This document shows positions 38,822-40,825 of a stretch of 59,157 bases of DNA, in pieces; the first letter of the stretch is position 1, and each line of letters starts with the position of its first letter. The notes under the pieces were generated by a model that saw only the letters and a list, made by a program, of their open reading frames with translations, was not told the origin of the DNA and made no database searches. Both the position numbers and the translations under genes were made by a program. This DNA is from an uncultured Victivallales bacterium. GTDB taxonomy: Bacteria; Verrucomicrobiota; Lentisphaeria; Victivallales; UBA1829. The stretch spans positions 1-59,157 of the forward strand of contig CALXRI010000017.1 of the NCBI GenBank assembly GCA_944390795.1, in the 5' to 3' direction.

Positions 38822-40825
38822 TCAGCGTCCGCGGCGTTCTTTCAGACAGGCCTCCGCAAAGAGAAGATCGCCCGGATAGGTGATCTTGATGTTTTCCGTC
38901 CGGTTTTCCACCAGATGGACTTTTGCGCGGGTGAAGGTTTCCACCAGAGACGCGTCATCTGTGAAGGTTCCTCCTTGTTTTTCCGCTGCGAGGCAGGCGT
39001 TCCGGAGCAGGGGAAGGCGGAACACCTGCGGGGTCTGCACCGTCCAGAGATTCCCGCGCGGAAGCGTCCGTATGACAATCCCGTTGTCATCGGTCTCCTT
39101 GATCGTGTCCGAAGCGCGGCGCGCTGAAACCGCGCCGCCGCATATCCGGCATGCCCGGACGCAGTCCGCCAGCGCTTCGGCGGTGATGAGCGGCCGCGCC
39201 GCGTCATGAACCGCGACGATCTCCGCGTCTTCCGGGAGCGCGGCAAGGGCGTTTCTCACGGATTGCGTCCGCGTTTCGCCTCCGGGGGCGAAACGGAGGA
39301 CTTTCAGCGCCTCGGGAAAATGCTGGCGCAGCGCTTCGATGAACTTGTCCCGTTTGGTCTCCGGCACCGCCATCACTGCGTATCCGGCGCGGACGCACGG
39401 AAGCAGTGCGCGCAGCGCGTGGAGGAAGACCGGTTCACCGTTCAGCTGGGCGAAGAGCTTGTCGCCGTTTCCGAAGCGGCGCGAGGAGCCGCCCGCCGCG
39501 AATACAAGGGCAAGGTCGGGAATCCGGCGGATTTTCTCCTTCAGAAACGGAAGGATTTCCTTCACGTCTCCCGCTCCGATGACTGCGACGAGATCGTTTT
39601 CCCGCAGCAGGGGGAAGATCTCATCCGCCATCGCCTCCCATGATCCGTTCAGCGTGCGCGCCCTGCTGCCGATTGCCCGCGCGAGATCCTTCGAATCCAG
39701 CGAGTCGGTTTCCGTCCATGCGGCGAAGACGGGCGTTACGAAAACGGCGTCCGCCGCCGCAAGCTCCCGGACGAACTCGCGGAAATACCGTTTCAGCCTG
39801 GCGTAGCGGTGCGGCTGGAAGATTACGACGAGACGTTTTCCGGGATGAAGTTCCCGGAGTGTCCGGATGGATGCGGCGATTTCCGTCGGATGGTGGGCGT
39901 AATCCTCAATCAGCAGCTGTTTTTCTCCGGCGCAGTGGATTTGAAGTCTTCTTCCGACGCCGGGAAAGGAGAGAAGCGCCTCCAGCGCGGTTTCACGATC
40001 CAGCAGTCCGCTGCGCGCCACTGCCTCCAGGGCAAGCGCGGCATTGATTCTCCGGTAGTGCCCGAATGCGGCGAAACGCGGATCGTCCGGCACGGTTCCC
40101 GGCGGAATGGCGCAGGCGTCGGGATGTTCCCGGAAAAGCGTTTCCGCGGGCGGCGCGTCCGTATAGACCAGTTTTTCCCCCTGAAACGCAAACTTGCGGA
40201 AGTTCTCCGGCAGGATTTCCGGAGAGGCGAAGTTCCATGCGTGATCGTCCTCGATGTTGGTTACGACGGCGACCGAGGAACGGATTGCGGTATGGGTTCC
40301 GTCGCTTTCGTCTGCCTCGCAGACAAAGATTTTTCCGCCGCCCGCACTGCCGGAATCCTCCCAGGAGACCACGTCCGCCCCGATCAGATAACCGGGATTG
40401 AGCCCGGCGGTCTTGAGAATATGCGCGATCATCGCCGATACGCTGGTTTTCCCGTGCGAGCCGCTGACGGCGATCACATGGGGAAAAAGGTCCGCGAGCA
40501 GGCCGAGCGCCTCGCCCCTCCGGATGCACTGCGCTCCGATCCTGCGCGCCTCGGCAAGCTCCGGATTCCTTTCCGTGACCGCGGAACTGTAGACGAGAAG
40601 CAGTTTCGTTCCGTCCGCGGTCGGCAGATGCGTTTTGTCGTGCCCCGCGAACACTTTCAGTCCGAGTCCGCGCAGACGCTCCAGCGACTCCGATTCCGCC
40701 AGATCGGATCCGGAAACGGTGAATCCGAGTTCATGAAAAATCCGCATCAGGGGCCTTGTTCCCGCCCCTCCGCAGCCGATGAAATGCACAAAACCGTCCG
40801 TTCTGTATGATAAAAGTTCCGTCAT
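38822..40825 (-). CDS. Bifunctional MurC-IspD: UDP-N-acetylmuramate--L-alanine ligase / MEP cytidylyltransferase
   Basis: One uninterrupted frame of 667 residues with two complete enzymes. Residues 1 to about 432 are MurC, which adds L-alanine to UDP-MurNAc: N-terminal GCGGAGTRPLMRIF, ATP loop GSHGKTSVS (122-130), EADESDGTHT, DYAHHPTEI and a final IGAGD. Residues about 436-667 are IspD, which makes CDP-ME in the non-mevalonate isoprenoid pathway: AAGGSSRRFGNGDKL (443-457), VHDAARPLI, TVQTPQVFR and TDDASLVE. Both have their key motifs, so both are probably active. The linker is short. The gene is alone, without the usual mur cluster or ispF. The fusion would join peptidoglycan precursor and isoprenoid (lipid carrier) supply on one chain. 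Confidence 0.93.
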   Translation of the reverse strand: MTELLSYRTDGFVHFIGCGGAGTRPLMRIFHELGFTVSGSDLAESESLERLRGLGLKVFAGHDKTHLPTADGTKLLLVYSSAVTERNPELAEARRIGAQCIRRGEALGLLADLFPHVIAVSGSHGKTSVSAMIAHILKTAGLNPGYLIGADVVSWEDSGSAGGGKIFVCEADESDGTHTAIRSSVAVVTNIEDDHAWNFASPEILPENFRKFAFQGEKLVYTDAPPAETLFREHPDACAIPPGTVPDDPRFAAFGHYRRINAALALEAVARSGLLDRETALEALLSFPGVGRRLQIHCAGEKQLLIEDYAHHPTEIAASIRTLRELHPGKRLVVIFQPHRYARLKRYFREFVRELAAADAVFVTPVFAAWTETDSLDSKDLARAIGSRARTLNGSWEAMADEIFPLLRENDLVAVIGAGDVKEILPFLKEKIRRIPDLALVFAAGGSSRRFGNGDKLFAQLNGEPVFLHALRALLPCVRAGYAVMAVPETKRDKFIEALRQHFPEALKVLRFAPGGETRTQSVRNALAALPEDAEIVAVHDAARPLITAEALADCVRACRICGGAVSARRASDTIKETDDNGIVIRTLPRGNLWTVQTPQVFRLPLLRNACLAAEKQGGTFTDDASLVETFTRAKVHLVENRTENIKITYPGDLLFAEACLKERRGR

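Follow-up and report, generated by a model that had tools for sequence, protein, structure and literature searches.

Within a single uninterrupted reading frame, an uncultured bacterium of the Victivallales (Lentisphaerota) encodes a MurC-type ligase joined directly to IspD, and we consider it very probable that the product is a genuine bifunctional enzyme: one that stems from a single fusion, is obligate, carries two independent sites and provides both the sole IspD and the sole orthologous MurC of these cells. Its N-terminal half would ligate L-alanine to UDP-MurNAc, as MurC does, and its C-terminal half would convert MEP and CTP to CDP-methylerythritol, as IspD does, with the two active sites most likely working independently, sharing no intermediate and channelling nothing from one to the other. 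The gene fusion behind this protein would have taken place once, in the ancestor shared by three genera that belong to one Victivallales family. The only consequence that would be certain to follow from such an architecture is the 1:1 co-synthesis of two essential enzymes; a regulatory benefit, in which the supply of the nucleotide precursor would be matched to that of the undecaprenyl carrier, is possible and would be secondary. The usual enzyme fusions unite steps of one pathway, whereas MurC and IspD belong to two pathways whose only meeting point is lipid II.

The fused frame and its two halves

The gene lies in a stretch of 59,157 nucleotides (the whole of the DNA analysed, here called the window), in which it is alone on its strand and flanked by oppositely oriented genes. 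Its features are as follows:

38822..40825, minus strand: MurC-IspD fusion gene, 667 aa; continuous frame, with the same architecture in nine other genomes
39527..40792, minus strand: MurC half, residues ~12-433; TIGR01082 and Pfam Mur_ligase, Mur_ligase_M and Mur_ligase_C
40442..40462, minus strand: ATP-binding P-loop GSHGKTS, residues 122-128; aligns with E. coli MurC GTHGKTTT 126-133
40241..40318, minus strand: Mur ligase metal/substrate motifs EADESD (170-175) and NIEDDH (190-195); align with E. coli MurC EADESDAS 174-181 and NIEADH 194-199
39797..39907, minus strand: C-terminal domain motifs EDYAHHP (307-313) and QPHRYAR (337-343); EDYAHHP aligns with E. coli MurC DDYGHHP 350-356
39515..39526, minus strand: linker of ~4 residues, about residues 434-437, from AlphaFold2 secondary structure
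38840..39511, minus strand: IspD half, residues 439-662 (~438-662); PF01128 179.5 bits, TIGR00453 196.5 bits; AlphaFold2 model with TM 0.90 to the solved B. subtilis IspD (5hs2)
39458..39499, minus strand: IspD nucleotide-binding loop AAGGSSRRFGNGDK, residues 443-456; aligns with E. coli IspD R20 and K27
38879..39208, minus strand: other IspD active-site motifs HDAARP (540-545), TPQV (598-601), TDDAS (622-626) and NIKIT (645-649); align with E. coli IspD D106/R109, the T165 region, T189 and K213

The first-pass annotation had read this frame as MurC and IspD in a single 667-residue protein, with a domain boundary at residues 432/436, a very short linker and the key motifs of both enzymes, and each of these points held. 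The frame runs from ATG to stop through 667 codons with zero interruptions at exactly the span then assigned to it, and Pfam, NCBIfam and PDB matches are found for both halves. Specifically, Pfam places Mur_ligase at residues 13-114, Mur_ligase_M at 120-203, Mur_ligase_C at 292-419 and IspD at 439-662, all above curated cut-offs (in the MurC half PF01225, PF08245 and PF02875 all exceed their gathering scores), and the closest relatives in the PDB are MurC structures for the N-terminal half (E ~1e-59) and IspD structures for the C-terminal half (E ~1e-37). The boundary fits a GAGD motif at residues 417-420, and in an AlphaFold2 model the final helix of MurC (419-433) is followed after some four residues by the opening strand of IspD (438-443), with no extra domain between the halves. 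This model was built on a shallow alignment of 9 sequences, has a mean pLDDT of 67.5 and lies mostly below 50 in the MurC central domain, so that it is uninformative on domain packing; the best structural matches of its MurC half are MurC, though the model is weak there.

The N-terminal half is most likely a MurC-type ligase, and MurC proper. The NCBIfam murC profile TIGR01082 matches it with 307 bits in two pieces, just below the equivalog cut-off of 335.1, and is by far the best of the single-enzyme Mur families (Mpl 107, MurE 48 and MurD 38 bits); the MurC regions of all other scanned MurC-type proteins of the class likewise fall below that cut-off. When aligned with E. coli MurC, EDYAHHP is kept in all ten fusions, and QPHRYAR aligns to QPHRYTR of a solved MurC structure. 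In the C-terminal half the cut-offs of both TIGR00453 (181.3 bits) and PF01128 (27 bits) are exceeded, and alignment with E. coli IspD shows that the equivalents of R20, K27, D106, R109, R157, T165, T189 and K213, its CTP- and MEP-binding residues, are all retained in the window protein. Across all ten fusions the catalytic motifs of both halves are kept with one exception, a Pro at the T189 equivalent in one genome (G020). Furthermore, comparison of the window protein with those of three other genomes (G002, G003 and G001) puts the dN/dS of the MurC half at 0.10-0.13 and that of the IspD half at 0.12-0.17, and both are therefore under purifying selection. The two other MEP enzymes searched, Dxr and IspF, score above cut-off in the window genome (G000), and MurE and MurF are also present there.

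Release of a free IspD from an internal start was considered and rejected: a candidate ATG lies near the junction in g8 (G010 and G023), is absent from G017, and no start is conserved across the three genera. The chain, of some 73 kDa, presumably stays uncleaved and active at both ends; IspD enzymes are normally dimers.

Distribution and origin of the fusion

An uninterrupted fusion is present in 10 of the 36 genomes of the family, namely all four of the window genus (g1), three of g3 and three of g8, and in the remaining seven genera murC and ispD are two genes. The fusion proteins of the three genera share ~48-95% identity and contain no internal stop (stops flagged in the matches from G001 and G023 are terminal). 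Of the nine genomes other than that of the window, three are also represented by named public records, CALXSJ010000024.1 (L009, 95% identity), CASEFP010000219.1 (L010, 83%) and SUWI01000010.1 (L011, 54%), labelled Victivallales, Lentisphaeria or Lentisphaerae. These named records are metagenome assemblies, which might raise the suspicion that two neighbouring genes had been run together through a missed stop or in a chimeric contig; since ten genomes from three genera show the same join, and at least three of these were submitted to public databases separately, such an artefact is vanishingly improbable, and we regard it as refuted by these independent genomes. Likewise, a missed stop near position 39520, the flaw that the first-pass annotation had itself named, is ruled out by the nine other genomes in which the same continuous frame crosses the junction. 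The flanking genes also differ by genus: TrkA/TrkH-like and cupin-like neighbours, identified by eye, are common to g1 and other neighbours are found in g3 and g8, so the join is not a single contig copied around.

In these three genera the fusion has taken the place of the separate genes. IspD scores above cut-off in every one of the 36 family genomes, as a fused copy in 10, as a separate gene in 26 and as both in none. A separate ispD would have escaped notice in all ten fused genomes with a probability of ~3e-10, as estimated from their completeness with missing parts assumed independent, and the fused copy is the sole IspD. A possible second IspD at C10:70284-70493 is a 65-residue match within a 433-aa frame that reaches 22 bits against a cut-off of 27, and it is not an IspD. 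The expectation that a separate murC would also be lacking stood in part: no separate orthologous murC occurs in any of the ten, but a divergent MurC-like ligase is carried by fused and unfused genomes alike (see below). Profile search for Mpl gave no match above cut-off.

Placed within the PVC group, as the first-pass annotation had proposed, the fusion is restricted by lineage to three related genera. Searches across the order (137 genomes in all) gave no fusion in any other family, a sampling of 388 genomes from the phylum gave none either, and no relatives were found among viral contigs. The ten fused proteins form one clade in the MurC tree, with support 100/100, and the fused genomes form one clade in the rpoB tree, also with support 100/100 (a usable rpoB was available from 8 of the 10, one of them partial); because both trees cluster the fused genomes, a single origin of the fusion followed by vertical inheritance is most likely. 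A tree of the IspD half, which is shorter, recovers this grouping as well, the fused clade being weakly supported (68/19). In the unfused relatives examined, murC and ispD are far apart or on different contigs, and no murC-ispD adjacency was found there that could have been the source of the fusion. What looks like a MurC tail before IspD in one genome (G004, GDMAKLLESI) is taken as chance, and the upstream gene looks MurQ/SIS-like by eye.

As a separate observation, a few genomes of the order (G021, G030, G051 and G054 among them), some of them more than 90% complete, give no MurC match at E <= 1e-60; murC in these would appear to be missing, split or very divergent.

A second MurC-like ligase

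The divergent ligase of the window genome is encoded as follows:

G000 C2:168870-170252 (L003:1417-2922): second MurC-like ligase, ~500 aa; best family MurC, 233 bits

This gene is found in every g1 genome and across the order, in both fused and unfused genomes, and hence it has neither replaced the fusion nor been replaced by it. Its motifs are altered, reading GTCGKT, DDYAHNV (thus HNV) and QPHGYKP (thus QPHGY), whereas the fused half keeps GxHGKT, HHP and QPHRY; on account of this divergence, and of its equal presence in unfused genomes, it was rejected as a displaced murC. Its existence nonetheless means that the description "only MurC" holds for the orthologue and not for all possible MurC activity. 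The second ligase could have some MurC activity, and it is a candidate enzyme for some other ligation, of UDP-MurNAc or of a peptide.

One could take this further and propose that the paralogue ligates the alanine, and that one half of the fusion, most likely MurC, is no longer a true enzyme and has another or a structural role. The presence of the ~500-aa paralogue across the order would be in keeping with this, as would the position of the fused half below the MurC equivalog cut-off. Yet it is the fused half that retains the canonical motifs and the paralogue that scores lower (233 vs 307 bits), the dN/dS of the MurC half is ~0.1, and unfused relatives retain the same ortholog as a stand-alone MurC; loss of the MurC function from the fusion is accordingly improbable.

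Known fusions and the possible role of the join

It is informative to compare the fusion with enzymes already described. Verrucomicrobium spinosum has a MurB/MurC fusion that can complement E. coli mutants in murB and in murC (PMC4803751) and is essential (PMC12283558). It too comes from the PVC group and joins MurC to another essential enzyme in one gene, but there the partner is MurB, which acts one step earlier in the same pathway, and here it is an isoprenoid enzyme; Pfam finds no MurB domain on the fusion chain, and the MurB of the window genome sits on another contig (C59), fused to Ddl. The MurC-Ddl of Chlamydia (McCoy and Maurelli 2005), which the first-pass annotation had offered as a precedent, is cited in PMC12283558. 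It shares the arrangement of an N-terminal MurC and a C-terminal partner enzyme, although that partner is the D-Ala-D-Ala ligase of the same pathway. Against NF011171, the family of Chlamydia-type MurC-Ddl, the fusion scores 242 vs a cut-off of 1015, its C-terminal domain being IspD with no Ddl on the chain. IspDF (NCBIfam NF006899; PDB 1w55) likewise joins IspD to another enzyme, but with IspD at the N-terminus and a partner, IspF, from the same pathway. A C-terminal IspF domain is absent from the fusion; IspF is encoded separately (L174; G000 C19:16226-16687), by a gene that adjoins the murE-murF genes in convergent orientation. MurC-Ddl, MurB/C and IspDF are thus already known, and the MurC-IspD pairing is apparently new: the open literature searched yielded no report of it, in agreement with the first-pass annotation, which named none, and a mention may exist in Pilhofer et al. 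2008.

Further fusions of wall enzymes occur in the same class:

G000, contig C59 (L173:600-2576): MurB-Ddl, single 658-aa protein
L085, L086, L087, L088, L089, L090, L092, L093, L094 and L095 (e.g. L095:3222-6302, minus strand): MurC-MurB-Ddl triple proteins, 1027-1145 aa
L091: triple-type frame with a degenerate MurB region
L097:1871-3907 (plus strand), L098:3535-5508 (minus strand) and L099:1988-4105 (plus strand): thiamine diphosphokinase (TPK) joined to MurC

MurB and Ddl are fused in most of the order and are two adjacent separate frames in one genome (G006). The triple proteins come from ten sampled genomes in other families of the class, and a further triple-type frame in G215 has a MurB region that is degenerate or unrecognised by profiles (domain scans covered three triple proteins and G215). 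TPK-MurC was found in three genomes of two genera, in family f10. Both types have a MurC domain related to that of MurC-IspD and other partners, TPK being N-terminal of MurC, and for neither did the open literature searched yield a report. In the MurC tree the triple proteins fall to either side of the separate MurC of the order, and TPK-MurC and the triples stand apart from MurC-IspD. Tentatively, given the long branches, the triple fusion may be ancestral and may have broken up in the order prior to the joining of MurC to IspD.

Since MurC is fused in this class even to TPK, from an unrelated pathway, it seems to tolerate fusion easily. It is quite conceivable, if somewhat short of an even prospect, that the MurC-IspD fusion is itself neutral or merely tolerated: MurC would readily take partners at either end, IspD would have been joined once by rearrangement, and the halves would work while the join has no role. 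Such an origin would account for the existence of the fusion and does not conflict with the bifunctional enzyme as a description of what it does. It would sit well with the MurC-MurB-Ddl proteins of ten sampled genomes and G215, with TPK-MurC in three and MurB-Ddl in most of the order, and with a linker of ~4 residues that holds no extra domain; it sits less well with the lack of any loss or fission in ten genomes of three genera, when fission is known elsewhere in the family (the adjacent separate MurB and Ddl frames of G006).

The first-pass annotation had instead stressed a link between wall-precursor synthesis and undecaprenyl supply, which is biochemically sensible and possible, and which is weakened by the repeated fusion of MurC to other partners in the class (MurC-MurB-Ddl, TPK-MurC). 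Under such functional coupling, MurC output (UDP-MurNAc-peptide) would be matched to IspD output (isoprenoids leading to undecaprenyl phosphate) by co-regulation or allosteric cross-talk. The products of both enzymes do ultimately feed lipid II, there has been no fission through deep divergence (10/10 genomes, ~48-95% identity), and the ispF gene next to murE-murF in the window genome, as a single convergent pair, adds weak evidence. However, the two reactions have no shared intermediate, the gene neighbours in g1 are unlike those in g3 and g8, murC and ispD lie apart in the unfused relatives examined, and the MurC of other relatives is fused to TPK, an enzyme without a wall role, so that we consider coupling unlikely. 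More doubtful still is the idea of a regulatory junction between wall-precursor and isoprenoid synthesis, at which one half of the fusion would sense or gate the other, in a lineage whose wall enzymes have time and again been assembled around MurC into multi-enzyme chains.

Should the halves of the bifunctional enzyme influence each other, they would offer a direct test of co-control between carrier-lipid and wall-precursor supply; even without cross-talk, MurC-IspD, MurC-MurB-Ddl, TPK-MurC and MurB-Ddl form a natural fusion series in which to ask why MurC is so often fused. Annotation pipelines may label such chains by one half alone.
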